Source: Pantoea sp. At-9b
Lineage (GTDB): Bacteria > Pseudomonadota > Gammaproteobacteria > Enterobacterales > Enterobacteriaceae
NCBI RefSeq assembly: GCF_000175935.2
Contig: NC_014837.1
Location: 3,844,001 to 3,908,000 of the forward strand
Direction of reading: 5' to 3'
DNA length: 64,000 nt
Shown here: one piece after another, positions 570 to 63,156 of the stretch
How positions within the stretch are numbered: position 1 is the first letter of the stretch
How the letters are laid out: each line of letters starts with the position of its first letter
Program-made: the position numbers and the translations under genes
The notes under the pieces: generated by a model
Told to the model about the DNA's origin: nothing
Database searches by the model: none
The model's input: the letters and a program-made list of their open reading frames with translations, nothing else

Positions 570-1429
570 GCCTCTTGCTGATCGAGTGCGTAGCGATACA
601 GTGCGTTCTTCTTCACACCGTGAATTTCCGCCGTCAGCGCGGCGGCTTTCTTCAATGGCAGCTCCTGTTGCAGCAGCGCCAGGGTACGCAGAGCCTCCGC
701 CGGTAACGCCTCTTCATCGGCCTTATGCCCTTCTACCACCAGCACCATCTCACCTTTGCGGCGATTGTCATCTTCCAGCACCCAGGCCAGCAACGCCGCT
801 ACCGGCGCGCCATGCAGTGATTCCCAGGTTTTGGTGATTTCACGCGCCAGCACCACATAGCGATCGCCACCCAACTCACTGACCATATCCTGTAAACTAT
901 CGATTAAACGGTGGGTCGATTCGTAGAAGATCAGGGTGCGCGGTTCCTGCGCCAGCGCACGCAAGGCATCGCAGCGTGCCTTGGTTTTCGCGGGCAGAAA
1001 CCCTTCGTAACAGAAACGATCGGACGGTAATCCCGCTGCGCTTAATGCTGTAATCGCCGCGCAGGCACCCGGCAACGGCACCACGCGGATACCTGCTTCA
1101 CGGCAACGACGCACCAGATGATAACCGGGATCGTTGATTAACGGCGTTCCGGCATCAGAAACCAGCGCAATGCTTTGGCCTTCCTGCAATTTGGCCAGCA
1201 GCACCTCGGCTTTCTGCTGCTCGTTGTGGTCGTGAAGTGCGAACAGTCGCGCATTGATGGCGAAATGTTGTAGCAACAGCCCGGTATGACGTGTATCTTC
1301 CGCAGCGACCAGATCGACGCTCGCAAGCACCGTTAACGCACGCTGCGTAATATCACCCAGGTTACCGATCGGGGTAGGAACGATATAGAGCGTGCTGGCA
1401 GAAATGTCTGCCCGATCGAGTTGTTTCAT
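566..1429 (-). CDS. rsmI: 16S rRNA (cytidine1402-2'-O)-methyltransferase RsmI
   Basis: Adds the 2'-O-methyl group of m4Cm1402 in the decoding centre of 16S rRNA, using S-adenosylmethionine. The 287-residue protein has the family's SAM-binding features: [14 protein letters not shown] at residues 15-28, [12 protein letters not shown] near 43-54, [16 protein letters not shown] near 90-105 and LPGACA near 118-123. Its length matches E. coli RsmI (286). It is divergent from lpoA with a 62 bp gap, as in E. coli. Its stop codon lies inside the rnpB promoter, so rsmI transcripts may run into rnpB. Confidence 0.97.
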
Positions 1430-1491
1430 TGTTTCATCCGAATTGCCGATTTAATATTGAGCATCTAGAAAAAAACATCACTGGATACAGT

Positions 1492-3552
1492 ATGCTTCCT
1501 TCAAAAGTCTTACGTCGTAAAGCAGGACGCTTTGTACCTGTTCTTCTCGCTGGGCTAATTTTAGCCGCCTGTAGCGGTCAGGGACCACAGCAAACGTCCA
1601 CCGTCAATGTTCAGGGTCCGATCACGGCCCAGTCTGACTATTACCTGCAGCAGGTGCAGCAAAGCAGCGATGATAGCAAGACCGACTGGCAATTACTTGC
1701 CATCCGTGCCTTGTTGAAGGAAGGAAAGTATCCACAAGCCAGCGATCAGATCAAACAATTGCCGCAGCAGCTCTCTGATGTGCAGCAGCAGGAATTGCAG
1801 TTGCTGCGAGCGCAGATGCAGATTGGTCAGCAGGATTTCAATGGCGCACAACAACTGTTGAGCCAGGTGAAAACTGACAGCCTGTCGCAGGATCAGCAGG
1901 CTCGCTATTACGGTCTGCAAATCGCAGCCGCCCAGAATCGTCCCTCGCTGGCATTGCTGCGCGCCTATATCGCTCAGGAACCGCTGCTGAAAGCGGCCGA
2001 TCACCAGAGCAATATTGACGCCACCTGGCAGGCGCTGACCCAGATGACCAAAGATCAGCTGAACAGCTTGGTGATCAATGCCGACGAGAATACCTTGCAA
2101 GGTTGGCTGGATCTGCTCAACACCTGGCATACCAACAGCCAGGACCCGGAGATGCTGAAAGCCGCCATCAAAGATTGGCAAACACGCTACCCGCTCAATC
2201 CGGCCGCCAAAACGCTGCCGACCGCGTTGGGTCAGGTGCAGAACTTCAGCAAAGCGTCTACCAGCACCATCGCGCTGCTGCTGCCGCTGAATGGTCAGGC
2301 ACAGATCTTCGCCAACGCCATCCAGAAAGGTTTTAACGATGCGAAAAACGGGGTGTTAACAGCACCGGCAGCCGCTCCACAACCGCAGCCAACCGCGGCA
2401 CCGGCCAGTGCTGATGCCAACGCCAACGCTCAGCAACCACAACAAGCCACGGCTACGCCAGATGCAACCGCCAATACGGTGGTCAGCCCGGCCGCTGCGG
2501 CCATCACCCCGGATCAAAGCAGCCAGCCACAACCTGCTGCTGCACCTGCCCCGACAGCCAGCACAGGCGATAGCAGCGCTCAGGTCAAAGTGTATGACAC
2601 CAGCAGCCAACCCATTCAGCAGGTGATGCAGCAGGCACAGCAGGATGGCGCGACCATCGTAGTGGGTCCGCTGCTGAAAAGTGACGTAGAAACCGTTGCC
2701 AACAGCAACTCGCCGCTTAACGTGCTGGCGTTGAACGAGCCAGAACAGATCCAGAACCATCCGAATATTTGTTACTTTGCGCTTTCTCCTGAAGACGAAG
2801 CGCGCGATGCCGCTCACCATATGTGGGACCAGGGCAAGCGTCAGCCGTTGCTTCTGTTGCCGCGTAACAGCTATGGCGATCGCGTCGGTAAAGCCTTTGC
2901 GCAAGAGTGGCAGACGCTGGGCGGTTCGACCGTGTTGCAACAACGTTTTGGCTCGGTCAGCGAGCTGAAACAAGGCATCAACAGTGGCGCGGGCATTAAC
3001 TTAAGCGGTACGCCGCTGATAGTGGAACCGGCACAGCCGCAGGGTGTGTCGATCGCCGGATTGAACATCCCGGCACCGCAGACCAGCGCTCCCGTGGCCG
3101 ATACCAGCGGTGGCAGCCTTGATGCGGTGTATATCGTTGCCAACCAGGATGAGTTACAGCTGATCAAGCCGATGATTGCAATGCGCACCAGCAGCCGCAG
3201 CAATATCGCGTTGTACGCCAGTTCACGCAGCTTCCAGGCCGGTGCCGGCCCGGATTTCCGCCTGGAGATGGATGGCCTGCAATTCAGTGATATTCCGTTG
3301 CTCTCCGGTAGCAACCCGGCACTGATGCAGCAAGCAGCAAAATCGTTTAATAACGATTATTCGCTGGTCCGCCTGTACGCGATGGGCATTGATGCCTGGA
3401 CGCTGGCGAACCACTTTAACCAGATGCGTCAGGTGCCGGGCTTTGCCATTGATGGCAACACCGGCAAGCTGAGCGCCACCCCGGATTGCGTGATCAACAG
3501 GAAGTTGGCATGGAACCAGTATCGTCAGGGACAAATCGTTCCGGTACAGTAA
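1492..3552 (+). CDS. lpoA: Outer-membrane lipoprotein LpoA, activator of PBP1A
   Basis: Outer-membrane lipoprotein that reaches through the periplasm to stimulate the transpeptidase activity of penicillin-binding protein 1A. I start at 1492 ([10 protein letters not shown]), which gives a lipoprotein signal ending in LILAAC-S at about residues 20-25; the upstream in-frame start at 1429 would put 21 non-signal residues in front. Residues about 30-260 form the helical TPR-like domain. About 265 to the end resembles a type I periplasmic-binding-protein fold. A Pro/Ala/Gln/Thr-rich stretch at about 286-360 interrupts the C-terminal domain. It is the first gene of lpoA-yraN-diaA-dolP and overlaps yraN by 43 bp. 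Confidence 0.95.
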
Positions 3553-5955: not shown

Positions 5956-6855
5956 ATGGCAAAAGAGCGCGCGTTAACCCTGGAAGCCTTACGTGTGATG
6001 GATGCTATTGACCGGCGCGGCAGCTTTGCCGCTGCGGCCGACGAGCTGGGACGTGTACCTTCCGCATTGAGCTACACCATGCAGAAGCTGGAGGAGGAGC
6101 TGGATGTGGTGCTGTTTGACCGTTCCGGCCACCGCACCAAATTCACCAATGTGGGCCGCATGCTGCTGGAGCGCGGGCGTGTGTTGCTGGAGGCCGCCGA
6201 CAAACTCACCACCGATGCCGAAGCGCTGGCTCGTGGTTGGGAGACGCATCTCACCATCGTTACCGAGGCGCTGGTGCCGACCGAACACCTGTTCCCGCTG
6301 GTGACCAAACTGGCGGATAAAGCCAATACGCAGATTTCCCTGGTGACCGAAGTGCTGGCCGGTGCCTGGGAACGTCTGGAGCAAGGACGTGCCGATATCG
6401 TCATTGCGCCGGATATGCACTTCCGCGCTTCAACTGAAATCAACACCCGCAAGCTGTACAGCATGATGAGCGTGTACGTCGCCAGCCCTGATCATCCGAT
6501 TCATCAGGAAGCGGAGCCACAGTCTGAAGTGACGCGTGTGAAGTATCGCGGCATTGCCGTGGCCGACACCGCCCGCGAGCGTCCAGTGTTGACCGTGCAG
6601 TTGCTGGATAAACAGCAGCGCCTGACGGTGAGTAGCATGGAGGACAAACGTAAAGCGCTGCTGGCCGGGCTTGGCGTAGCCACCATGCCTTACTCACTGG
6701 TGGAGCAGGATATCGCTGAAGGGCGTCTGCGCGTGGTGAGTGCCGAATATACCCGTGAAGTGGATATCATTATGGCGTGGCGGCGCGACAGCATGGGCGA
6801 AGCGAAAGCCTGGTGCCTGCGCGAGATCCCACGTCTGCTGGCGAAAAAAGGCTAA
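5956..6855 (+). CDS. yhaJ: LysR-type regulator YhaJ
   Basis: LysR-family transcription factor. In E. coli, YhaJ responds to quinol-type compounds and dinitrotoluene metabolites and controls yhaK and other genes. Residues 8-67 form the winged helix-turn-helix, with recognition region SFAAAADELGRVPSALSYTM at about 22-41. Residues about 95-295 are the effector-binding domain. The length is 299 residues. It starts at ATG with GAGAAG upstream. It is divergent from yhaK, and its stop codon lies in a terminator hairpin shared with the following repeat element. Confidence 0.93.
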   Translation: MAKERALTLEALRVMDAIDRRGSFAAAADELGRVPSALSYTMQKLEEELDVVLFDRSGHRTKFTNVGRMLLERGRVLLEAADKLTTDAEALARGWETHLTIVTEALVPTEHLFPLVTKLADKANTQISLVTEVLAGAWERLEQGRADIVIAPDMHFRASTEINTRKLYSMMSVYVASPDHPIHQEAEPQSEVTRVKYRGIAVADTARERPVLTVQLLDKQQRLTVSSMEDKRKALLAGLGVATMPYSLVEQDIAEGRLRVVSAEYTREVDIIMAWRRDSMGEAKAWCLREIPRLLAKKG

Positions 6856-6877
6856 TCCGCGCAGCGGGTTAGCCTTT
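6847..6877 (+). terminator. yhaJ terminator hairpin
   Basis: A 14-bp stem (aaaggctaatccgc / gcgggttagccttt) with a gca loop spans the yhaJ stop codon. It has only a short T-run, so it may act together with the palindromes that follow. Confidence 0.6.
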
Positions 6878-6879
6878 CC

Positions 6880-6993
6880 GTAGCGGCGCGATTTATCGCG
6901 CGGATTTTTCTGGCAACGTGTACGAAACCGCGCGATAAATCGCGCCGCTACGAAGGGTACGGAGACGCATTACGCGATTAATCGCGCCGCTAC
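6880..6993. repeat. Intergenic palindrome cluster (REP/BIME-like), three half-units
   Basis: GTAGCGGCGCGAT (6880) is followed by an inverted copy ending ATCGCGCCGCTACG (about 6930-6952) and a third half-unit with the same inverted end (6973-6993). The family recurs at 17111, 19688, 33518 and 45857. The last half-unit contains the TAG stop codon (6990-6992, minus strand) of the regulator gene to its right. It lies between convergent genes. Confidence 0.85.
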
Positions 6994-8909
6994 AGGCGAC
7001 TGAGGCAATCCATCGCCACCGCTTTGAAGCTGGTGAAATCACCACAGTCACGCAGTCTGGTGGTGGCGCGTTCGCGCAGGAAAGTCACGAACAGGTCATA
7101 GATCGCCATCGCCTCTTCGTATTCGCTTTTGCTGATGGCCAGCAGAAAAATCACCGACGCAGTTTCCTCGCCCCAGCTAATGCCATGCGGGGCTAACACG
7201 GTGTAGACCACGGTTTTCTTCGCCAGCAGCCCCAGCGAGTGCGGTAGCGCAATGCCTTCCCCCAACAGAGTGCTGACAATCGCTTCGCGTTCCTCAACCG
7301 ACGGATAAAAATCCGCTTCCACATAGCCTTCGTGCTGTAGCTGGTCACACAGTTGGCGGAACAGCGCCGATTGCGTCATCGGCTGGTCAATCACCAGGAA
7401 ATGCTGCGCATCGAAGTATTTTTCCAGCATATAAGGCCGGGTCCGATCCACCAGCACCAGCTTGCCAAGCTGCTCCAGCTGGAATTCTGTTGGGAATGGC
7501 GACATCACCACCACCGGGCTGTTTTTCTCGCGCAACCGGGCGGTGGAGATAACAAAATCCTCGTCGATAACGTCGATTGCTTCATACTCACGCTGCGACA
7601 GGCGTCCCGTTACCTGCAATTGAGGGTATTTACGCAGCAACATCGCCTCGATCATACGCAACGTAGAATTACCGCTATCGCACACCAGCAGCACCCGTGG
7701 GTGACGCTGATAACCCACGTCATAATGACGCTCCAGGCCCACACCAATATGCAGTACCAGGAAACCGATTTCGTTTTCACTGATGGTGTATGGCGTATAT
7801 TTTCCCCAACTGGTAACCGCCGCCAGGGTCATGTCATAGGCCATCGGGTAATGCTGCTTGATATTACTCAACAGCGGATTGGGGATATGGATCTGGTAAC
7901 GCACCCGGGTAATCATGGTTTTGATATGGGTGAGCAAATCAGCGCGCAGTTGCTCATCCTGTTGCAGACGGTAGTTGTAGTGGGTGTTGATGTAATTCAG
8001 CAGGTAATCCACCAGCGCGTCCGCATCATCGGCATTGATGGTGCTGGGAGCCAGCGCCTGAATCTGGCGGGCCGCGATGTTAACGCGCAGCCAGTTCTCT
8101 TCCGCCTGGGAAATCGGTTTGCCCACCAGCGGCCGCATCAGGTTCACCAACTGATGCGCGGCTTCGCGCACTTCATCACCCACATCTTCCGCGCCAGGAT
8201 CGTTGAGGGGAAACCCCTCGCTGATACGCCGTACCGCCACCGCGCAATAGATTTGCAGATAGCGCTCACCTTCATCGCTGAGGCGGATGGCGTGATGCGT
8301 GAAACATTGCTGGAGCAGCGGTTGCAGCTGCTCCAGCATCCCGCTGTGTAAGGTTTCTACCGTCAACAGCGGGCTATCCGGCGTTTCCTGATCAATTTGC
8401 CACAACAAATCGGTCAGGCAGGTACGGATCGCCGCTTCGCTGCCGAACAGCTTCATACCGTAACGCGGTTTGGTTTCAATATTCAGGTGATAGCGCCCGA
8501 GCCATTCACGCACCTCAGCCATATCGCTTTGCAGGGTCGCGCGGCTGACAAACCACTCCTCTGACAAATCTTCCAGTTTGAGCGAATAGGCTGCGGTGAG
8601 AAAACGACTGAGCAGATAACGCACCCGTTCCTGCGAAGTGCGTGGCACGCGCAACGGTGCTGCGGTCTGTGTCTGGAGTTGGCCAAAACGCAGCGCGTCC
8701 TCCACCTTCAGTTGATAACCCTCGCCACGCGCCAACACGAACTGCGCGCCATGCTGCGCCAGCAGCGCATTGAGCGCCGTGATATCGGTGCGCACCGTGC
8801 GGGTCGACACGGAAAAACGCCGTGCCAGCTCATCTTGCGGCAGCGTTTCATTTTGCAGCGCAGCGAAAAGTTGGGCCAGACGCTGGTTGGGAAATCTCAC
8901 GGGCTTCAC
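6990..8909 (-). CDS. MtlR/LicR-like PTS-regulated transcriptional activator
   Basis: BglG/MtlR-type activator and the last gene of the accessory operon. Numbered from the first GTG at 8909, it has an HTH_11 winged helix (about 8-65), a second Mga-like HTH (about 95-160) and two PTS regulation domains (about 190-300 and 305-400). A GatB-like EIIB domain (about 404-490) with phospho-cysteine C410 in VCDSGNST and a fructose-type EIIA domain (about 512-639) with H557 in ALPHS follow. PRD2 keeps H328 and H387; PRD1 has no histidine at either usual site. A second in-frame GTG at 8900, with AGGTGA five bases upstream, is a better start. The stop codon lies in a palindromic repeat. The regulator probably senses uptake through PTS phosphorylation and drives the upstream genes. 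Confidence 0.88.
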   Translation of the reverse strand: MKPVRFPNQRLAQLFAALQNETLPQDELARRFSVSTRTVRTDITALNALLAQHGAQFVLARGEGYQLKVEDALRFGQLQTQTAAPLRVPRTSQERVRYLLSRFLTAAYSLKLEDLSEEWFVSRATLQSDMAEVREWLGRYHLNIETKPRYGMKLFGSEAAIRTCLTDLLWQIDQETPDSPLLTVETLHSGMLEQLQPLLQQCFTHHAIRLSDEGERYLQIYCAVAVRRISEGFPLNDPGAEDVGDEVREAAHQLVNLMRPLVGKPISQAEENWLRVNIAARQIQALAPSTINADDADALVDYLLNYINTHYNYRLQQDEQLRADLLTHIKTMITRVRYQIHIPNPLLSNIKQHYPMAYDMTLAAVTSWGKYTPYTISENEIGFLVLHIGVGLERHYDVGYQRHPRVLLVCDSGNSTLRMIEAMLLRKYPQLQVTGRLSQREYEAIDVIDEDFVISTARLREKNSPVVVMSPFPTEFQLEQLGKLVLVDRTRPYMLEKYFDAQHFLVIDQPMTQSALFRQLCDQLQHEGYVEADFYPSVEEREAIVSTLLGEGIALPHSLGLLAKKTVVYTVLAPHGISWGEETASVIFLLAISKSEYEEAMAIYDLFVTFLRERATTRLRDCGDFTSFKAVAMDCLSRL

Positions 8910-8923
8910 CTGTTACTTAATTG

Positions 8924-9661
8924 TCACAACAACTTTTTGCACGTTGCCAGCAGCTGACGCACGTCTTCAATGCGTGTGTCGCCAGTTGCACTGTCGATAA
9001 TCGAACTATAGACGTGCGGAATCACTTTACTGACGCCCGCCTCCAGCGCAATACGCACAATCTCTTCAACGTTGTCGAGATCAATGCCGCCGGTTGGTTC
9101 CAGCCAGAAGTTGTGACGTGCACAGGCTTCCGCCACCGCGCGATACTCCGCCACCGCTTTCAGCCCGCCCATCGGGAAATATTTCACCGAACTGCCGCCC
9201 ATGTCCTGCAACAAGCGGATGGCACTGTCGATCGGCACGATGGCATCCGGCCCTTGCGCACTCAGCGGTCCGGTGGAGATTTTGACCAGGCCCGGCGTAC
9301 CGGTGGGGGAAATCAGACCGTTCACCACGGTGTCGTGCTGGCCGAGTAACGCGCGGCTGGTGGCAACGCCCGTGAACACCTGGTTAACGTGTTGTGGTTG
9401 CAGCTCAGCCGCAATCTCACTCACCATCGCCGATTGATTGGGATCGCCGGCACCCAGCCCGACAGAAATTGCATTATCAATCAGCGCCGCGTACTCGCGC
9501 ATGTCGGCAATCGCCGCCTCGGTGCTGGCGTAGTTTTTTGACAACACGCCCACCAGCACATAACCGTCCGCCGCTTCCCAGATATCACGCGCGTTCTGTT
9601 TAGAACCCGCCAGCACATTGAGGCACAGACGGCCCTGATAAAATTTCGGTGTCAGCGTCAT
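8924..9661 (-). CDS. KDGP aldolase family protein (DgaF-like)
   Basis: Predicted class I aldolase that splits 2-dehydro-3-deoxy-6-phosphogluconate or a close analogue into pyruvate and glyceraldehyde 3-phosphate. Its 245 residues match Salmonella DgaF (D-glucosaminate pathway) and the KDGP_aldolase family by sequence signature: RLCLNVLAGSKQNA at 11-24, ISVGLGAGDPNQ at 65-76, a candidate Schiff-base lysine K160 in SSVKYFPMGG, and PTGGIDLDNV at about 188-197. Its ATG overlaps the preceding DgaE-like gene by 4 bp, which suggests coupled translation. The pairing with DgaE supports a shared ammonia-lyase then aldolase route. Confidence 0.9.
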   Translation of the reverse strand: MTLTPKFYQGRLCLNVLAGSKQNARDIWEAADGYVLVGVLSKNYASTEAAIADMREYAALIDNAISVGLGAGDPNQSAMVSEIAAELQPQHVNQVFTGVATSRALLGQHDTVVNGLISPTGTPGLVKISTGPLSAQGPDAIVPIDSAIRLLQDMGGSSVKYFPMGGLKAVAEYRAVAEACARHNFWLEPTGGIDLDNVEEIVRIALEAGVSKVIPHVYSSIIDSATGDTRIEDVRQLLATCKKLL

Positions 9662-10779
9662 GCGCGTGTCTCCCCGTTGAGCAATCCCTGAATAGCGGTA
9701 AAAATGGTATGCAGCTGATCGGCACTGACGCTGCGTACATCAGCTTCGATAATCCCTTCATTGGCTTTGTAGCCACGGAAGTAGATAGCGATATCCCCGG
9801 TTTTCAGTGCCTGCACCAACTCGCCAGTGGCCCAGCCGGTTTGCGTCTCGTCGAACTTGATTTCGGCACGCGCGATGTCACGTCCGGCAGCATCCCACAC
9901 GACACGCGCGCTCACACCGTTCAGGGTGTTGAGGTTGGTGATAAACGGCGTCATTTTTTCTACCATCTCTGCGCCGGTGGTTTTCTCCTGCGACAGATAG
10001 TTTTCAATCGCCTGCGTCAGCCCCAGAATGCCTTCTTTGCCCACCTTCATCGCACGGCCAATGCCGTTGCTCTGGCGCTTCACCCACTCAACATAGTGTG
10101 AACGGCCAATCACCAGTCCACTGGTTGGCCCCTCAATCGCCTTCGCCCCGCTGTAGATCACCAGGTCAGCGCCCATCTGGTAATAGCACTGCAAATCCTC
10201 TTCGGCAGCGGCATCGACAATCAACGGGATACCATGCTTACGTGCCACCACCGCCGCCTGTTCGACGCTGAGGTGGCTTTTCTGCACGCAATGGTGAGAT
10301 TTGATGTACAGCAACGCGGCAGTGGTCGGCGTAATCGCCGCTGCCAGCTGTTCTGCCGAACATTCGTTGCTGTAGCCTGCTTCCACCAGGCGTCCACCGC
10401 CCAACGCCACCATGGTACCAACCGGTGCGCCAAAATTGACGTTATGCCCCTTCGGTACCACGATATCGTGCGGCACACTGAGGGGGGCGGCATGCAGGTT
10501 TTCCAGCAGCCAGGCATTATCTTTGACGATCACCGCTGCTACGCTCTGGGCGATACCGGCCGAGGCACAGGAGACCACCACCGCGTTTTCTACCTCAAGC
10601 AACCGGGCGATATACGCACCGGTTTTATCCACCAGATCTTTCATCTCAAAGTAGTGGTTGAGGCCGTATTTTACGGTATCCACCACATCCGCTGCCGGTG
10701 TCGACACGCCGAGAATGGTCATGCGGCCAGAGGCGTTGATGACCTGCTTCAGGTCATATTTTTCATAAATCGAAGACAT
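9658..10779 (-). CDS. DgaE-type PLP-dependent ammonia-lyase/dehydratase
   Basis: SelA-related fold-type I PLP enzyme. In Salmonella, DgaE converts D-glucosaminate 6-phosphate to 2-keto-3-deoxygluconate 6-phosphate with release of ammonia. Numbered from my start (10779, MSSIYEKYDL), the cofactor lysine is K213 in YSGAKAIEGP and the PLP-pyridine aspartate is D189 in IVDAAAEED. NASGRMTILG (15-24) is the family N-terminus. I prefer 10779 over the upstream ATG at 10797 because GAAGGGAAAG lies just ahead of it. It overlaps the deacetylase gene by 17 bp and the aldolase gene by 4 bp. The true substrate here may not be glucosaminate 6-phosphate. Confidence 0.88.
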   Translation of the reverse strand: MSSIYEKYDLKQVINASGRMTILGVSTPAADVVDTVKYGLNHYFEMKDLVDKTGAYIARLLEVENAVVVSCASAGIAQSVAAVIVKDNAWLLENLHAAPLSVPHDIVVPKGHNVNFGAPVGTMVALGGGRLVEAGYSNECSAEQLAAAITPTTAALLYIKSHHCVQKSHLSVEQAAVVARKHGIPLIVDAAAEEDLQCYYQMGADLVIYSGAKAIEGPTSGLVIGRSHYVEWVKRQSNGIGRAMKVGKEGILGLTQAIENYLSQEKTTGAEMVEKMTPFITNLNTLNGVSARVVWDAAGRDIARAEIKFDETQTGWATGELVQALKTGDIAIYFRGYKANEGIIEADVRSVSADQLHTIFTAIQGLLNGETRA

Positions 10780-11896
10780 GATTGGCTTTCCCTTCATCAG
10801 TCAGATGCCACTGGCCTGCCACCACGGCGGCCAGCGGCACCAGATGTTGCTCACCCAGCACCTGTTCGCCTTCAGCATCGACAAACGGGCGGGCTTCCTC
10901 TTTGACGGTAAAAATGGTCAGGTCGGCGTCGTAACCGACTGCCAGGCAACCTTTGTTTTTCAGTCGCAGACCGGTAGCAGCGTTACGTGTAACGCAGTCG
11001 ATCACCTGCGGCAGCGTCATACCCATGCTGAAGAATTTCGACATCACATGCGCCAGGCTGTGCACCGGGCCATTGAGACGGTTGCGGCAGTAAATATCAG
11101 AACTGATGGTGTCCGGCAGAATGCCCTGGGCAATCGCCTGGCGCGCCACTTCAAAGCTGAAGCTGGCGCTGCCGTGTCCGATATCCAGCCGCACGCCGCG
11201 CGCGATCGCGTTTTTCACCGCCGCTTTCAGCTCGCCCTGTGGCGTCAGGATGCGGTTGGGTTTGCCGTTGTAGCAATGCGTGATGATGTCGCCGGAGGTC
11301 AGCAGATCAGCGATCTCCTCCAGTACCGGCGGATTGTTGCCGATGTGCACCATCAGCGGCAGATTACCGGCCGCCTGCTGGATGGCTTTGGCACGGATTA
11401 ACGGTTGGATACCGTTTTCACCCACCACACTGCTGCTCATACGCGCTTTGAGGCCGACGATAAAGTCGGGACGGCGTTGAATGGCCTGTACCACTGCCTC
11501 GCCGTCGATCTGCGCCATATCGGCCAGTTCGTTCTGCGTGACAATACCGGTGCGGGCGATGTTGATCAGCGCACGAACGTCGGTGGTGACCTGGCGCGTC
11601 AGCTGATAAAAATCGTCAATATCATCAGCCCCCGTACTGCCAGCATCCACCACCGTGGTAACGCCTTGCGCGACGCCGATGGCATCCGCATCGTCATGAT
11701 AAATTGGCGATTTTGGGTAACAGTGAACGTGGCTGTCGATCCAGCCTGCGCTGACGTAAAAGCGTCCGGCCAGGTCGTGCTCCCTGGCGGTCTGGCCGCT
11801 TACCGCGCCCAGCGCAGCGATTTTGCCGTCCTGCCACGCGATATCCACCAGTTGCCCGTCGCACAGACGCGCACGACGGAGAATGACATCAAACAT
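10763..11896 (-). CDS. Amidohydrolase-superfamily deacetylase (COG3964-like)
   Basis: Predicted binuclear metal-dependent hydrolase of 377 residues. The subtype I amidohydrolase ligands are all present: H56 and H58 (DSHVH), K150 for carboxylation (VGLKARM), H184 (MVHIGN), H207 (THCYNG) and D267 (SSDIYC). Relatives in COG3964 are often mislabelled dihydroorotase. Two of them (from Agrobacterium and Enterococcus) were shown to deacetylate acetylated hydroxy acids such as acetyl-(R)-mandelate. Here it probably removes an acetyl or acyl group from the imported compound before the PLP enzyme and aldolase act. It is 9 bp after the DUF4310 gene. The substrate is inferred from context only. Confidence 0.85.
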   Translation of the reverse strand: MFDVILRRARLCDGQLVDIAWQDGKIAALGAVSGQTAREHDLAGRFYVSAGWIDSHVHCYPKSPIYHDDADAIGVAQGVTTVVDAGSTGADDIDDFYQLTRQVTTDVRALINIARTGIVTQNELADMAQIDGEAVVQAIQRRPDFIVGLKARMSSSVVGENGIQPLIRAKAIQQAAGNLPLMVHIGNNPPVLEEIADLLTSGDIITHCYNGKPNRILTPQGELKAAVKNAIARGVRLDIGHGSASFSFEVARQAIAQGILPDTISSDIYCRNRLNGPVHSLAHVMSKFFSMGMTLPQVIDCVTRNAATGLRLKNKGCLAVGYDADLTIFTVKEEARPFVDAEGEQVLGEQHLVPLAAVVAGQWHLTDEGKANHVFDL

Positions 11897-11905
11897 ATCC
11901 CCTCC

Positions 11906-12547
11906 TTAGAGAGAAATCGGGAAGATCGCGCCCAGCACCATGGCACCGAGAATCGCACCGCCGGTAATGGGCTTGTTCCACAGGTAGAACAACAGGGAAC
12001 CCACCAGCGAGCCGAGACCAATAGGAATCGAAGCGGTCATCGCCGAAAGGATGATCAACGGCCCGAGGAAGCGGCCCGAAGCGTTACCTGCCCCCATCAT
12101 CACGTCAGCACCGTAGGTGGAGTCGCTCTGATTGATGGTGAACTTACGCGCCAGGATGATGATGTAGCCAATCGCCACACCAATCACCAGACCGGTCGCC
12201 AGCGAGGCGGCGAAGTTCGCTACCGGGAAGACAATGCCCGCGCCCAGCAGCAGCGCCGGAACCCCAAGACCGACCCCGGTCTGAATCGCCCCGCCGATAT
12301 CGAGAATCCCCACCAGCGAACCTTCGATGATACGGGCAAACAGGAAGCTGGCACCGAACGCCGCGACGGCACCGTAGACACCGGTTTCCATGCCGGAACG
12401 CAGCATCGAGACAAACGCCACTTCGTTAAAAGCACCAATGCCGTACAGGTAGTACATATGCGTACCGGCAAATACCCCGGCGGAGAGCAGGCCGACAAAA
12501 ATCGGGAAAGACCAGTCGGCGTACCAGAACCCTTTGTTTTCGTTCAT
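11906..12547 (-). CDS. DUF4310 family membrane protein
   Basis: Integral membrane protein of 213 residues with no assigned function. About six hydrophobic segments are visible (around 13-32, 55-75, 85-103, 107-130, 155-175 and 185-210). They are joined by Gly-rich loops such as DIGGAIQTGVGLGVPALLLG. It lies directly downstream of the DUF4311 gene (12 bp gap), and the pair look like the membrane core of a transporter. The family is found only in this conserved cluster as far as I recall. A structural parallel with PTS EIIC or EIID is possible but not shown by the sequence. Confidence 0.85.
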   Translation of the reverse strand: MNENKGFWYADWSFPIFVGLLSAGVFAGTHMYYLYGIGAFNEVAFVSMLRSGMETGVYGAVAAFGASFLFARIIEGSLVGILDIGGAIQTGVGLGVPALLLGAGIVFPVANFAASLATGLVIGVAIGYIIILARKFTINQSDSTYGADVMMGAGNASGRFLGPLIILSAMTASIPIGLGSLVGSLLFYLWNKPITGGAILGAMVLGAIFPISL

Positions 12548-12559
12548 GCGGATGGCTCC

Positions 12560-13336
12560 TTATTTGCCGCTGAGGCTGTTGTGGATCATATCCAGCCAAC
12601 CCGGAATACCCAGTTGGAAGGATTGCAGCAGTTTCATATCGAAGCCGCGGAAGAAGCCGCTCAGCACGAATAGCAGCACGATGGCGATCATCATCACTTT
12701 GGTGACCTTGTTCCAACCGCTCTCCTCGACGCCTTTACCAATCAGGATGCCCAGTACCAGACCCGGCACGGCGTTACCCATAATCAGCTGAGCCAAACCG
12801 CCAAAAATGGTGGCCCAGAAGCCCGATTTTTTCCCGGCATCGATAGCGGCCAGCCAGAAGATCACCGGCATGACGGTGTTCACCAGCAGGTTAGCCGCCG
12901 GTACCAGTACTTTTACCGCTGTGACCTGCAACGCTGCTGGCACAGCAGAAGCCGTGCTATTCAAAAAGGCGACGACGATCATGCCGATGATGCCGCAGGC
13001 AATCGCCATCTTCTTCGGGTTGTGTAGTGTTTCGGCCACGTTGCGGTTTTTCACCATCAGAGCCGCCGCGCCCCAGTTGGGCAGAATGCGATGGTCAACA
13101 TCCTGGGTGAAAGAACCTGCTGCAACAGATGAAGCCCAGGCGTTAAAGAAAAAGCCGAGACCAAAGGAGAAGTGCGATGCCGGATCGCCCTCACAGGAAT
13201 TAAGCTCGCCCAATGTCCGGAACGCGCCCATGCCCTGCGTGGTAGGAGCATGGAACATGCGCGCCGCACCTGCTCCAACGCCAACCCCTACCAACCCGCC
13301 AATGATTAACGACTTAAACAAAATAATTAAAAACAT
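12560..13336 (-). CDS. DUF4311 family membrane protein
   Basis: Integral membrane protein of 258 residues. It begins with a hydrophobic helix (MFLIILFKSLIIGGLVGVGV) and then a conserved soluble stretch with HAPTTQGMGAFRTLGELNSC and DPASHFSFGLGFFFNAWASS. Further membrane segments lie at about 115-135, 143-165, 178-200 and 213-230. Function is unknown. The polar, Gly- and His-containing stretch between the first helices is a likely substrate-binding region (inference). It is flanked by DUF4312 (27 bp upstream) and DUF4310 (12 bp downstream) in one operon. Confidence 0.85.
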   Translation of the reverse strand: MFLIILFKSLIIGGLVGVGVGAGAARMFHAPTTQGMGAFRTLGELNSCEGDPASHFSFGLGFFFNAWASSVAAGSFTQDVDHRILPNWGAAALMVKNRNVAETLHNPKKMAIACGIIGMIVVAFLNSTASAVPAALQVTAVKVLVPAANLLVNTVMPVIFWLAAIDAGKKSGFWATIFGGLAQLIMGNAVPGLVLGILIGKGVEESGWNKVTKVMMIAIVLLFVLSGFFRGFDMKLLQSFQLGIPGWLDMIHNSLSGK

Positions 13337-13363
13337 GCGTTTACCTTTGTTTTTCGTCTGTTG

Positions 13364-13663
13364 TTAAGGTGCCGCCGTGAATTCCACCTGCTCGGTATCG
13401 ATCACGGTGACGCTAACGGTGATCTCCAGCTCCACGCTGTAGTTCCGTCGCTCACGCGCGAGGAAAAAGAACAAAAATTTCTCTGTCTTAACGCGCTCCT
13501 GCGCGCGCAGCACCCGAACATCCTGGGGTTCGATGCGCAGCAGAATCTTTTGTGTGGTGCGCAGCACCTGCTGCTGCACCTTACTCAGGGCATCGGCAAA
13601 GGCTTTGGCTTTGCTGTCACCTTTGCCCTGTACCGTTACCTGAGTCACGTATTGTTGTTTCAT
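13364..13663 (-). CDS. DUF4312 family protein
   Basis: Small soluble protein of 99 residues with no known function. It has no signal peptide or membrane segment. The pattern is alternating beta and alpha: a beta strand (YVTQVTVQGKG), a helix (SKAKAFADALSKVQQQVLRT), then strands KILLRIEPQDVRVLRAQE and YSVELEITVSVTVID. This gives a ferredoxin-like alpha/beta appearance. It is 2 bp after the SFCGS gene, so the two are probably made in similar amounts and may form a cytosolic complex at the membrane pair. Confidence 0.83.
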   Translation of the reverse strand: MKQQYVTQVTVQGKGDSKAKAFADALSKVQQQVLRTTQKILLRIEPQDVRVLRAQERVKTEKFLFFFLARERRNYSVELEITVSVTVIDTEQVEFTAAP

Positions 13664-13665
13664 AC

Positions 13666-14022
13666 TTAGCTGCCGTATTTTTTCTTCCAGGCCAGTACCA
13701 GCCGCTCCCCCAGTTCTTCTTTATCCATAAAGCCAAAACCGAGGACATTGGCACCTTCGTTAATCGCGGTGACGCCTTCATCAATCGAACGCATACCGTG
13801 TTTCGATTTGTAGCCATATTTGTTCTGCGCGGTAATCGCCCCTGCACCGCCGCTGCCGCAGAAGGAGATGCCGAAATCCGCATTCTCCGCCTTCATCACG
13901 TCGCCCAGCTTCATATCTGCGGCCACACCTGGCACCACCACCGCACGGCCACCGGCTTTTTCCACGCCTGCCGCTACTTTTTGTCCTTTACCCAGACGAT
14001 CGCCAATGACTACCGTTACCAT
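13666..14022 (-). CDS. Glycine-rich SFCGS family protein
   Basis: Cytosolic protein of 118 residues from the ATG at 14022, chosen because GAGAGGA lies eight bases upstream; a TTG two codons earlier is also in frame. The signature ISFCGSGGAGAITAQNK places a cysteine (C55) at the end of a predicted strand, followed by a Gly-rich loop and an N-K pair (67-68). A second block, NEGANVLGFGFM and ELGERLVLAW, follows. This layout resembles RpiB/LacAB isomerases (CGTG..., AANK, then N-D-ANVLALG) and less closely the PTS EIIB phospho-cysteine loop. No function is assigned to the family. Confidence 0.85.
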   Translation of the reverse strand: MVTVVIGDRLGKGQKVAAGVEKAGGRAVVVPGVAADMKLGDVMKAENADFGISFCGSGGAGAITAQNKYGYKSKHGMRSIDEGVTAINEGANVLGFGFMDKEELGERLVLAWKKKYGS

Positions 14023-14047
14023 GTTCAATTCCTCTCTGATTGCTGAC

Positions 14048-14380
14048 TTAATGAGTTCTTGCTACTTCAATGTGTACCGACAGCAGCCACGCTTCTTCAC
14101 GTGGCAGGTTGCCGAACAAATCCACCACCTGCTGCGCCAGCGCCATGGTCTCGGGCGAAATATCCTCGAACAACTCCGCTTCCACTTCCGGTAAGGCTTC
14201 ACCGGTCAGGGAGCGCGAGGCCATCGCCCGCACATGTGAGGCCAGCATCTGCTGCTGCACCGCATTAGGTTCGATGTGGTGCGCGGCATACAGCGCGGCA
14301 ATCTGCATCATCACGTTATCCGCCAGCGCCTGAATCGCTTCCGGCGTGCTTTGTTTCAGCGGAACAGCTTCACTACTCAC
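14048..14380 (-). CDS. Stand-alone PRD-domain protein, first gene of the accessory operon
   Basis: Small protein of 110 residues made of one PTS regulation domain. The two histidines expected of a PRD are present, in MLASHVRAMASR and WLLSVHIEVAR. It has no DNA-binding or RNA-binding domain, so it cannot regulate by itself in the usual PRD way. I prefer the GTG at 14380, eight bases after AGGAG, over the GTG at 14389 that abuts the Shine-Dalgarno sequence. It is followed 25 bp later by the SFCGS gene. It may report PTS phosphorylation state to the system, or partner the large PRD activator encoded at the operon's end. Confidence 0.83.
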   Translation of the reverse strand: MSSEAVPLKQSTPEAIQALADNVMMQIAALYAAHHIEPNAVQQQMLASHVRAMASRSLTGEALPEVEAELFEDISPETMALAQQVVDLFGNLPREEAWLLSVHIEVARTH

Positions 14381-14470: not shown

Positions 14471-14490
14471 TTTCCACCTCGAAGTGGAAA
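14471..14490. promoter_or_regulatory. Candidate operator palindrome upstream of the accessory operon
   Basis: TTTCCAC-ctcgaa-GTGGAAA is an 18-of-20 palindrome about 90 bp upstream of the first gene's start. No T-run follows on the minus strand, so it is unlikely to be a terminator. It may bind the operon's MtlR/LicR-like activator. Confidence 0.45.
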
Positions 14491-14634: not shown

Positions 14635-15021
14635 TCAGCGGAATTTCTTATGGTTAACGCTACGAATATCGTCCAGTTTCTTCGCCTCAGTTTTGGCTTC
14701 ATCCAACTTGTTGGCTTTCGCCAGTTGATCGACGACATCAATCTGGGCAATCAGGGAATCCAGTCCGGCGTGAAAATCCTTCATTTCAGCGCTATCAGCA
14801 GGCTGTCCTGCCAGTTTTTCCGGGGTAGATTTTTTCGCATCCTCCGCCGCCTGGCGCATCTGGCCAAGCGCGGTTTGCATCTCCTGGGCATCGTCGGTTT
14901 TCTTCACCGTTTTCAGCCCATCATTCAGGGTGTGCATATCTTGCTTCAGATCAGCCGCAAACAGGCTGGTACTGGAGAACAACAGCGACAGAGACAACAT
15001 TGCAATCATATGCTTACGCAT
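14635..15021 (-). CDS. cybC: Soluble cytochrome b562
   Basis: Periplasmic four-helix-bundle haem protein. A 22-residue signal peptide ends at FAA/ADL. The mature protein of 106 residues keeps both haem ligands of E. coli cytochrome b562, Met7 (residue 29, ADLKQDM) and His102 (residue 124, SVNHKKFR). Otherwise it is rather diverged from the E. coli protein. It is next to pmbA, as in E. coli, but has its own ribosome-binding site (AAGGAA). A terminator stands between the two genes, so it is transcribed separately. The physiological electron partner is unknown in the family. Confidence 0.92.
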   Translation of the reverse strand: MRKHMIAMLSLSLLFSSTSLFAADLKQDMHTLNDGLKTVKKTDDAQEMQTALGQMRQAAEDAKKSTPEKLAGQPADSAEMKDFHAGLDSLIAQIDVVDQLAKANKLDEAKTEAKKLDDIRSVNHKKFR

Positions 15022-62877: not shown

Positions 62878-62953
<76 letters not shown>

Positions 62954-62978
62954 GTAGGAGGTACTGCTATACAAATTT

Positions 62979-63054
<76 letters not shown>

Positions 63055-63080
63055 ATAGGAGGTACTGCTGAACCAAATTT

Positions 63081-63156
<76 letters not shown>

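Follow-up and report, generated by a model that had tools for sequence, protein, structure and literature searches.

A nine-gene operon of Pantoea sp. At-9b that may join a PTS-linked membrane system to the catabolism of an N-acylated hexosaminate

The window that we analyzed, 64,000 nt of Pantoea sp. At-9b (NC_014837.1, positions 3,844,001-3,908,000), raises the question of what a DgaE-like ammonia-lyase and a DgaF-type aldolase do in one gene cluster with five protein families of unknown function. The sequence-only reading had placed nine co-directional minus-strand genes at 6990-14380; all nine ORFs are present in the order that it gave, and their NCBIfam/Pfam assignments match the families that it named. 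We favor, at slightly less than even odds, a catabolic operon with one regulated promoter that serves PTS-dependent uptake, deacetylation, deamination, and aldol cleavage of an N-acetylated 2-amino-2-deoxy-aldonate. The features are as follows.

14471..14490, no strand assigned: operator palindrome TTTCCACCTCGAAGTGGAAA (+ strand), ~90 bp upstream of the first gene
14048..14380, minus strand: stand-alone PRD protein (EF_0829 family; TIGR03582, 122.3 bits)
13666..14028, minus strand: SFCGS protein (EF_0830), predicted RpiB/LacAB fold, invariant Cys57
13364..13663, minus strand: DUF4312 protein (EF_0831), 99 aa (TIGR03578, 128.6 bits)
12560..13336, minus strand: DUF4311 membrane protein (EF_0832), putative translocator subunit (TIGR03580, 509.8 bits)
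11906..12547, minus strand: DUF4310 membrane protein (EF_0833), putative translocator subunit (TIGR03579, 386.6 bits)
10763..11896, minus strand: predicted cog3964-type amidohydrolase/deacetylase (EF_0837; TIGR03583, 549.8 bits)
9658..10779, minus strand: predicted DgaE-like PLP ammonia-lyase (TIGR01437, 588.4 bits)
8924..9661, minus strand: DgaF-type 2-dehydro-3-deoxy-phosphogluconate aldolase (NF047796, 382.4, cut-off 300; TIGR03581, 396, cut-off 222.4)
6990..8909, minus strand: PRD/PTS-type transcription activator (Pfam HTH_11, Mga, PRD, and PTS_EIIA_2 domains)

From the PRD gene through DUF4310 to the amidohydrolase gene, the gaps are 19, 2, 27, 12, and 9 bp; the amidohydrolase and DgaE-like genes overlap by 17-35 bp, depending on which DgaE-like start is used (10797 in the ORF list, from which residues are numbered here, or the likely ATG at 10779), followed by a 4 bp overlap with the aldolase gene and a 14 bp gap to the activator gene. 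For the first gene, GTG 14380, the start in the sequence-only reading, is preferred over the ORF-list start at GTG 14389 because of an AGGAG upstream at the usual distance and because of conservation. Between 5000 and 17000, terminator-like matches are no more numerous than chance predicts (13, against 13.0 expected). Profiles TIGR03582, TIGR03577, TIGR03578, TIGR03580, TIGR03579, TIGR03583, TIGR01437, TIGR03581, and NF047796 score above NCBIfam curated cut-offs, all seven EF_0829/AHA_3910 families (TIGR03577-TIGR03583) among them. NCBIfam/TIGRFAMs already lists these families as EF_0829/AHA_3910 "hypothetical equivalogs" (hypoth_equivalog) under model names that state no function, and our literature search found no paper on the EF_0829/AHA_3910 system; relative to those entries, the substrate, fold, and operator are proposals added here. 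New as well are the Bartonella HPr-Enzyme I fusion and the conservation of both histidines in the stand-alone PRD protein. Beyond the sequence-only reading lie the DgaE-like score under the strict DgaE cut-off, the SFCGS fold, the operator, and the variants in E. faecalis, Bartonella, and Klebsiella.

To what extent do these genes travel together? Among the best 80 of 497 related loci, 78 carry the complete set of nine in unchanged order, or 76 on a recount at 70% coverage per protein: in L009 and L078 the downstream genes are missing where the locus stops at a contig end, and in L071 and L074 a divergent PRD protein is covered to only 62%. Being the best of 497, these loci come from close Enterobacterales, and order-wide genome samples are the fairer test. 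There, DUF4311 and the amidohydrolase (EF_0837) score above cut-off in the identical 14 of 148 genomes of the order. The sequence-only reading had named usual occurrence of the unknown families without the enzymes as fatal to its proposal, and the samples show the opposite. SFCGS is found in 13 of the 14, the exception being G323, an assembly 75% complete whose DUF4311 gene lies at a contig edge, and the DgaE family (E<=1e-40) in all 14 operon genomes, with a decayed copy in G334. This sharing of transporter-type and catabolic genes by the same genomes was counted for our explanation. The expected recurrence in Enterococcus, Aeromonas, and enterobacteria is borne out by NCBIfam names and related loci, with an Aeromonas match found for these families; the AHA tags in the NCBIfam names presumably stand for Aeromonas hydrophila.

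The operator is conserved as well. A TTTCC-N10-GGAAA palindrome lies upstream of 95 of 97 operons, against a chance expectation of 2.7, when the best upstream site with <=2 mismatches to TTTCCA-N8-TGGAAA is taken (57 exact, 30 with one mismatch, 8 with two). A search for further sites, which covered 7 of 15 operon genomes, found none sharing the inner core in the six whose operon site is exact, and the 14471-14490 palindrome is likely bound by the PRD activator that the operon itself encodes. In that activator, His328, His387, and His557 are present in 92/95, 93/95, and 92/95 sequences, respectively, the remainder being gaps. The stand-alone PRD protein, in which no DNA-binding domain was found, has both PRD histidines, His52 and His106 (numbered from GTG 14389), invariant in 97/97 sequences; its Pfam PRD score of 15.4 falls below the gathering cut-off of 23, which the Bartonella copy passes (24.5). 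We suggest that the PTS (PEP, Enzyme I, HPr) would phosphorylate the PRD histidines of both proteins and that the activator would read the 14471-14490 operator. On two Bartonella plasmids the operon is followed directly by an HPr-Enzyme I fusion, which may serve the regulator only; this fusion was counted for the PTS-dependent explanation, as were invariant His52/His106 and the SFCGS Cys57.

The enzymes tie the operon to Dga-type catabolism, as the sequence-only reading had claimed from gene content, and the co-occurrence above supports that link. The deacylation step that it had added also finds its enzyme, a predicted metal-dependent amidohydrolase with PDB relatives 8wzy, 2ics, and 2ogj, whose candidate binuclear metal ligands H56, H58, K150, H207, H241, and D267 are present in 95/95 sequences and H184 in 94/95; the roles of these residues we take by analogy with the superfamily. 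Enzymes of cog3964 reportedly accept N-acetyl-D-serine and acetyl-(R)-hydroxy acids as substrates (attributed to Ornelas, 2013), and characterized relatives cleave acetate esters. C2 of D-glucosaminate is D-type (2R), which, with those substrates, was counted for our explanation. In the DgaE-like protein, H169, K219, and R310 are present in 91/95 sequences and R341 and R355 in 90/95, the remainder being gaps, and alignment to DGL (7lc0) reveals that the DgaE proton donor and the proposed phosphate-binding Arg cluster are retained. The aldolase, with PDB relatives 3m0z/3lm7, passes the DgaF equivalog cut-off, which was likewise counted in favor. The amidohydrolase would thus take off acetate, the DgaE-like lyase would take off ammonia to give KDPG, and DgaF would cleave KDPG to pyruvate and glyceraldehyde-3-phosphate.

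Salmonella dgaABCDEF shares the DgaE-family ammonia-lyase, the DgaF aldolase, and the KDPG end intermediate, but its EIIABCD permease is replaced here by DUF4310/4311/4312, SFCGS, and the PRD protein, a deacetylase is added, and the DgaE-like enzyme lies outside the equivalog (NF047797, 367.5 vs 600 bits). That the locus is an ordinary classical D-glucosaminate PTS operon is thus very improbable, despite its DgaF equivalog and DgaE-family enzyme: no EIIA/B/C/D permease genes lie among the nine, a mannose-family PTS permease search (NCBIfam, Pfam) returned none of them, and in G166 this operon stands alongside a classical EIIA-EIIB-EIIC-EIID-DgaE-DgaF operon (EII genes recognized by eye) whose DgaE scores 710.9 on NF047797 (cut-off 600). 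The coexistence in G166 also fits the earlier claim that a new membrane system stands in for the PTS permease, the part concerning replacement; the importer role itself is likely.

That role would fall to DUF4311 and DUF4310 in the inner membrane, with the stand-alone PRD protein, SFCGS, and DUF4312 as soluble partners. Both membrane proteins have hydrophobic segments by hydropathy, with many invariant polar residues in DUF4311, whereas hydropathy finds none in DUF4312. In E. faecalis, SFCGS (74%) and DUF4310 and DUF4311 (69%) are better conserved than all other proteins (28-63%). A PTS-controlled signaling or accessory complex, with uptake left to a Lac/Cel-type PTS in E. faecalis and to an unlinked system elsewhere, is quite unlikely: the E. 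faecalis operon does contain a lactose/cellobiose/chitobiose-family EIIC, the pair matches no known transporter family above cut-off (NCBIfam, Pfam), and SFCGS has a predicted enzyme fold, but this part of the operon is the best conserved, and within operons L097-L099 and L134-L146 no further transporter gene came to light. Two observations were counted against our explanation here, a failed model of the membrane pair (pLDDT 51.2) and a GPH-type sugar symporter-like gene (by eye) that, in L135, immediately precedes the operon in the same orientation.

SFCGS is predicted to belong to the RpiB/LacAB fold, with Cys57, invariant in 97/97, in a CGxG loop aligned with the catalytic Cys of RpiB; this assignment is new here. 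No RpiB turned up when PDB sequences were searched by profile. Relative to the RpiB/LacAB sugar-phosphate isomerases, predicted fold and Cys position are alike, but the SFCGS gene is fixed beside the membrane pair, and the alignment holds no His counterpart to RpiB His99, which acts in ring opening. One bold reading, which we consider improbable, makes the first five genes a PEP-dependent group-translocation system unrelated to known PTS Enzyme II: DUF4311/DUF4310 would translocate, the PRD protein (His52/His106) would act as Enzyme IIA, and SFCGS (Cys57) as Enzyme IIB or substrate-handling subunit. No PTS Enzyme II match was found in these five proteins (NCBIfam, Pfam). E. coli yhfSTUVWXYZ, whose other enzymes differ, likewise encodes a PRD protein standing alone (YhfY), a Cys protein resembling RpiB (YhfU), and an orphan membrane protein (YhfT), and would then be a second, separately built system with the same parts list; homology of the membrane proteins to YhfT is not detectable (hhalign P 0.22-0.24), and a direct SFCGS-YhfU comparison is not significant (P 0.12).

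When is phosphate added? We give even odds to phosphorylation of the substrate ahead of DgaE, with uptake or the step right behind it as the likeliest stage; that the importer itself adds the phosphate is doubtful. On the other hand, a non-phosphorylating importer may be followed by unphosphorylated deacetylation and deamination, with an unlinked kinase acting on KDG before DgaF and the PTS only regulating, a course that we regard as possible though tentative. The Pseudoalteromonas ong pathway runs so in the accessible text of PMC9537276, KdgK scores above cut-off elsewhere in 12 of 15 operon genomes (counted against our explanation), and in E. faecalis a PfkB kinase resembling KDG kinases adjoins the aldolase gene, which with the EIIC there suits late phosphorylation and another importer in that species and was likewise counted against our explanation. 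Against it, G349 (complete, one contig) and G389 hold the operon without KdgK above cut-off, albeit with other PfkB-type matches; no kinase was found among the nine genes (NCBIfam, Pfam), in the annotation of the Bartonella and Klebsiella operons, or by eye in L134-L146; and the Arg cluster is conserved, all three being counted for phosphorylation ahead of DgaE. The same cluster is also retained in 8t7j, and the DGL residues are from the available portion of PMC9529869, where the phosphate site is a product of manual docking; both points were counted against.

The substrate is probably an N-acylated hexosaminate, and the best single candidate, held tentatively, is N-acetyl-D-glucosaminate (GlcNAc1A), the C1-oxidized end of chitin. 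The classical dga operon of G166 argues for something other than plain glucosaminate. In L099, L134, L136, L137, and L146, a lactonase gene (signal-peptide-like N-terminus in all but L136) separates DgaF from the regulator and points to an aldonate or lactone; the insertions recognized by eye in L134-L146 are otherwise two unrelated ORFs in L138. In E. faecalis, the chitobiose-family EIIC and a MupG-type 6-phosphoglycosidase inside the operon suggest a chitin-type disaccharide. The ong cluster of Pseudoalteromonas, acting on oxidized chitin (N-acetyl-D-glucosaminate), likewise deacetylates and deaminates toward KDPG with an amidohydrolase-superfamily deacetylase. According to the accessible parts of PMC9537276 and PMC12017989, it imports through an SSS symporter and relies on a subtype V deacetylase and a D-amino-acid-deaminase-like enzyme, with KdgK acting once the amino group is gone. 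The nine genes include no match to an SSS transporter, D-aminoacylase-type, OngC-type, or kinase family (NCBIfam, Pfam), and the set OngIT, OngB, OngC, and KdgK is not found in this cluster.

It is somewhat unlikely that the same logic serves a different substrate, whether another N-acyl hexosaminate (N-acetyl-D-mannosaminate or -galactosaminate), a derivative with a formyl or larger N-acyl group, or an aldonate that is O-acetylated. C2/C3 stereochemistry disappears en route to KDPG, which lets more than one input arrive at DgaF; the DgaE-like enzyme sits well outside the strict equivalog, and cog3964 relatives have the esterase activity noted above. LPMO_10 is absent from eight operon genomes, and its enrichment is not significant (6/14 vs 32/134 others, p=0.19), which was counted against our explanation. 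An O-acetyl substrate, however, leaves the PLP ammonia-lyase without explanation, and the E. faecalis genes favor a GlcNAc-type disaccharide there.

Five families of unknown function from Enterococcus, alphaproteobacteria (Bartonella), and enterobacteria would gain a concrete, testable job, and if the importer claim is true, a new transport class is joined to the PTS. As far as the text at hand of PMC11653859 goes, LPMOs occur in two Aeromonas strains that have no clear OngB/OngC, and the possibility of different deacetylases and deaminases is left open there; GlcNAc1A as substrate would close that gap. Aeromonas carries these families. Additionally, EF0838, still entered as a selenium transferase in the portion of a functional genomics source available to us (PMC7701990), has that annotation corrected by the present analysis.

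The operon of nine minus-strand ORFs in the window is confirmed, and NCBIfam and Pfam bear out each family named in the sequence-only reading, in the order solo PRD protein, SFCGS protein, DUF4312, DUF4311, DUF4310, amidohydrolase, DgaE-like enzyme, DgaF and activator. The tight spacing it described also holds, with intergenic distances of 2-27 bp and otherwise short overlaps, and terminator-like matches are not above chance. The interpretation that it placed on the operon is partly supported and is sharpened here.

14380 (or 14389) to 6990, minus strand: the nine ORFs of the operon
14635-15021: cytochrome b562 gene (cybC), operon flank, named by eye
5956-6855, plus strand: LysR-type gene, operon flank, named by eye

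The surrounding genome is 6.31 Mb in size, and among the best 80 of 497 matches the closest named relatives of the window's DUF4311 protein are from Pantoea, with the copy of Pantoea sp. AS-PWVM4 being 100% identical. Elsewhere in the window, three tandem tRNA-Gly(gcc) genes occupy 62878-63156 on the minus strand. NCBIfam already names these families without giving a function; searches by family names and locus tags, which cover subscription journals thinly, returned no paper on the system, just four with mentions of single locus tags. In an E. faecalis Tn-seq study, EF0839 is placed possibly in amino-sugar processing with an eda-type mechanism (PMC7701990), and EF0839 or its identical twin EF2975 surfaced in a urine expression screen (PMC2912369).

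The unknown families are inherited together with the catabolic ones. DUF4311 lies above cut-off in 14 of 148 genomes of an even sample of the order, and the EF_0837 amidohydrolase in exactly the same 14 (Fisher p 6.8e-20, kinship ignored); a check for the opposite pattern, with the unknown families mostly found apart from their catabolic partners, came out negative. SFCGS passes its cut-off in all but one of these genomes (13 of 14); the exception is G323, a genome 75% complete with its DUF4311 at a contig edge. Within the same sample, DgaE-family matches at E<=1e-40 were found in all 14 genomes and also in G334, which carries a decayed operon (L149, ~6597-9776) with fragments of SFCGS, amidohydrolase and regulator, a DgaE-like ORF that is still open, and no DUF4311 match. 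DUF4311 was found in 7 of 299 genomes of a phylum sample and in 1 of 274 of a class-wide sample, the latter being the window's own genome. A search of E. coli with the DUF4311-DUF4310 DNA (20,395 records/5,426 genomes) gave no match. Six plasmid records contain DUF4311, and all four examined (Enterococcus, two Bartonella and Klebsiella) also contain the amidohydrolase and DgaE-like genes; the gene context in Bacillota and alphaproteobacteria comes from these plasmid records only.

For comparison we used 97 operons, of which 80 are close relatives and at least two pairs (L066/L135 and L048/L138) look like one contig each. All nine proteins are found at 70% coverage each in 76 of the 80 close loci (the best 80 of 497), in 9 of the 13 loci L134-L146, and in 3 of the four plasmid loci L096-L099. 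The count is failed by L143, L144 and L145 through a divergent PRD protein (65-68% covered), by the E. faecalis locus L096 through a divergent regulator (23% covered), and by L138, with a regulator match of 47% coverage in a sequence that may end inside the regulator gene. In L138, the place after DgaF that the regulator takes in other operons is occupied (1168-3383) by two unrelated ORFs of 587 and 151 aa. Several genes of L060 were matched piecewise, the extracted DgaE sequences of L031, L032, L063 and L069 contain gaps, and some genes in the L134-L146 gene lists are masked by longer ORFs on the opposite strand.

All 95 copies of the amidohydrolase keep H56, H58, K150, H207, H241 and D267, and 94 keep H184; together we take these to be the ligand set of a binuclear amidohydrolase. 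Distant (~30%) relatives of this enzyme are found at L147, L148 and L150; those at L147 and L148 presumably sit with TRAP-type transporter genes, and L148 has what we take to be an acid-sugar kinase-like gene nearby, neighbors that are consistent with the broader family acting on acid sugars. Alignment of the DgaE-like enzyme with DGL (PDB 7lc0) places Lys219, His169 (DGL His163, the proton donor) and Arg310/341/355 (DGL Arg301/332/346) at positions kept in 90-91 of 95 copies, the rest being gaps; in Bartonella L097, the adjacent His168 is Ala. The three arginines point to a phosphorylated substrate; this falls short of proof because in DGL the phosphate was positioned at them through manual docking (PMC9529869), and because PDB 8t7j has the same three arginines. 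DgaF scores over its equivalog cut-off. Together, the enzymes could convert an acetyl-amino-aldonate(-6-P) to the amino-aldonate(-6-P) and acetate, then to 2-keto-3-deoxy-6-phosphogluconate (KDPG) and ammonia, and KDPG would be cleaved to pyruvate and glyceraldehyde-3-phosphate.

As to where the phosphate enters, none of the nine operon genes in the window encodes a kinase. Of the 15 operon genomes, 12 have KdgK above cut-off. The other three are G323, which is incomplete, G349, which is complete in one contig, and G389, which has a completeness rating of 100%. If the substrate is phosphorylated during or shortly after uptake, the lack of KdgK in G349 and G389 would be accounted for, but both contain other PfkB-type matches. 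We consider the chances of such early phosphorylation evenly balanced.

Variants in other organisms bear on the nature of the nutrient. A 7-bladed lactonase gene lies between DgaF and the regulator on the Klebsiella plasmid L099 and also in L134, L136, L137 and L146, where it was assigned by N-terminus likeness; by eye, the N-terminus is signal-peptide-like in all but L136. Its presence in the operon makes an aldonate or its lactone the likely nutrient. The E. faecalis operon starts with the regulator gene and has genes inserted ahead of the amidohydrolase: an EIIC that belongs to the lactose/cellobiose/chitobiose family (TIGR00410, 393 bits), a membrane protein of 99 aa and a 6-phosphoglycosidase of the MupG type. 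Its aldolase is followed by a PfkB kinase that is KDG-kinase-like but below KDG kinase cut-offs. This arrangement suggests a phosphorylated disaccharide precursor and a kinase-based route there. The KDGP aldolase ORF of the E. faecalis record NZ_CP143580 (L096 18573-19064) is just 163 aa long, unannotated and matched in two pieces. A second DgaE of G166, which scores 710.9 bits to strict DgaE, belongs to a classical EIIA-EIIB-EIIC-EIID-DgaE-DgaF operon. In G166, then, the operon studied here does not stand in for dga, and its substrate is likely to be a different one.

We tentatively propose N-acetyl-D-glucosaminate as the substrate, at somewhat less than even likelihood, because it suits not only the enzymes and the D-type C2 centre but also the lactonase and the chitobiose-type EIIC of E. 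faecalis. Its route here would be "phosphorylate first", an option that Jiang et al. weighed and ruled out for Pseudoalteromonas (PMC9537276). An Aeromonas study describes LPMOs, with OngB/OngC matches that are distant or absent, and leaves other deacetylases/deaminases possible (PMC11653859). The window's genome has two LPMO_10 genes (G000:C1:2313742 and 3643683). It counts against this substrate that LPMO_10 is not significantly tied to the operon (6 of 14 genomes with the operon versus 32 of 134 without, p=0.19; p=0.31 without the window's own genome). A link to LPMOs is unsupported as a requirement and gives no proof that the substrate comes from chitin.

Regulation appears confined to the operon. 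The palindrome TTTCC-N10-GGAAA (consensus) lies upstream, at window 14471-14490, and 95 of 97 upstream regions, Bartonella included, match TTTCCA-N8-TGGAAA with at most two mismatches (57 exact, 30 with one, 8 with two), against 2.7 expected by chance. The misses are L056 and E. faecalis L096, the latter being no fair test because its different gene order makes the searched stretch coding. Every one of the 57 exact palindromes in 1.95 Mb of loci is upstream of the operon. A scan of 7 of the 15 operon genomes gave 15 exact sites versus 7 for a backwards-read control pattern; six lie at the operon, one each in six genomes, and the other nine do not share the inner core, so the regulon, judged from these sites, appears to be the operon alone. 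TAATTT at ~14438-14433 could be a -10 box, which would put the palindrome near -55, a usual position for an activator site.

The activator, product of the last gene, combines HTH, Mga, PRD and EIIA2 domains. Of 95 copies, 92 have its His328, 93 its His387 and 92 its His557, with gaps in the others; the E. faecalis regulator gave no EIIA2 match. The solo PRD protein (EF_0829) has no other Pfam domain above cut-off and, at identities down to 34% in E. faecalis, keeps both H52 and H106 in 97 of 97 operons. On the two Bartonella plasmids, an HPr-Enzyme I fusion gene (HPr residues 9-86, EI 117-640) directly follows the operon, which contains no recognizable Enzyme II. Such a copy, with its own PEP-to-HPr chain and without an Enzyme II, indicates that some operon product must be PTS-phosphorylated, be it the regulator or the solo PRD protein, if not both. 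The Bartonella HY761 plasmid (L098 121-7085) has an inverted duplication of replication/partition genes just before the operon. In L139-L142, the operon adjoins what we take to be hpf, rapZ and (as an ORF in L142) npr of the nitrogen-PTS cluster, another PTS neighborhood. L135 has, immediately upstream of the operon and in the same orientation, a gene (9831-11303) that by eye resembles those of GPH/MelB sugar symporters.

The relation of SFCGS to RpiB emerges only from comparing folds, from hhalign and from weak NCBIfam/Pfam matches under the cut-offs; a PDB-sequence profile search with the SFCGS alignment returned no RpiB (best E 0.54), nor did a single-sequence search. For the membrane pair, a 36-row model of P0063, which holds both membrane domains in one protein, reached pLDDT 51.2, and Foldseek returned nothing at E<=0.001; we do not claim a new fold. 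The idea that DUF4311 and DUF4310 are halves of E. coli YhfT arose by eye and from a sub-cut-off E. coli signal, and is rejected on present evidence (hhalign P 0.24 and 0.22). Sub-cut-off PF14188 matches elsewhere include L089, L090 and L108; the L089 match is presumably a DjlA-like protein, and that of L090 spans the same profile range.

Like the present operon, the orphan E. coli yhf operon (L002 4936-12345) combines a solo PRD protein, an RpiB-like Cys protein and a membrane protein, YhfT; homology between the membrane proteins of the two is not detectable. YhfU (DUF2620) aligns with RpiB at hhalign P 1.3e-4 over 29 columns, with its Cys falling on RpiB's catalytic Cys, and YhfY has a PRD match below cut-off (E 7e-4) and an hhalign P of 7e-4 to EF_0829. 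YhfU thus resembles proteins of the RpiB type, and YhfY a solo PRD protein. The parts list common to both operons makes it worth stating that the transport part of the present operon could be categorically new.
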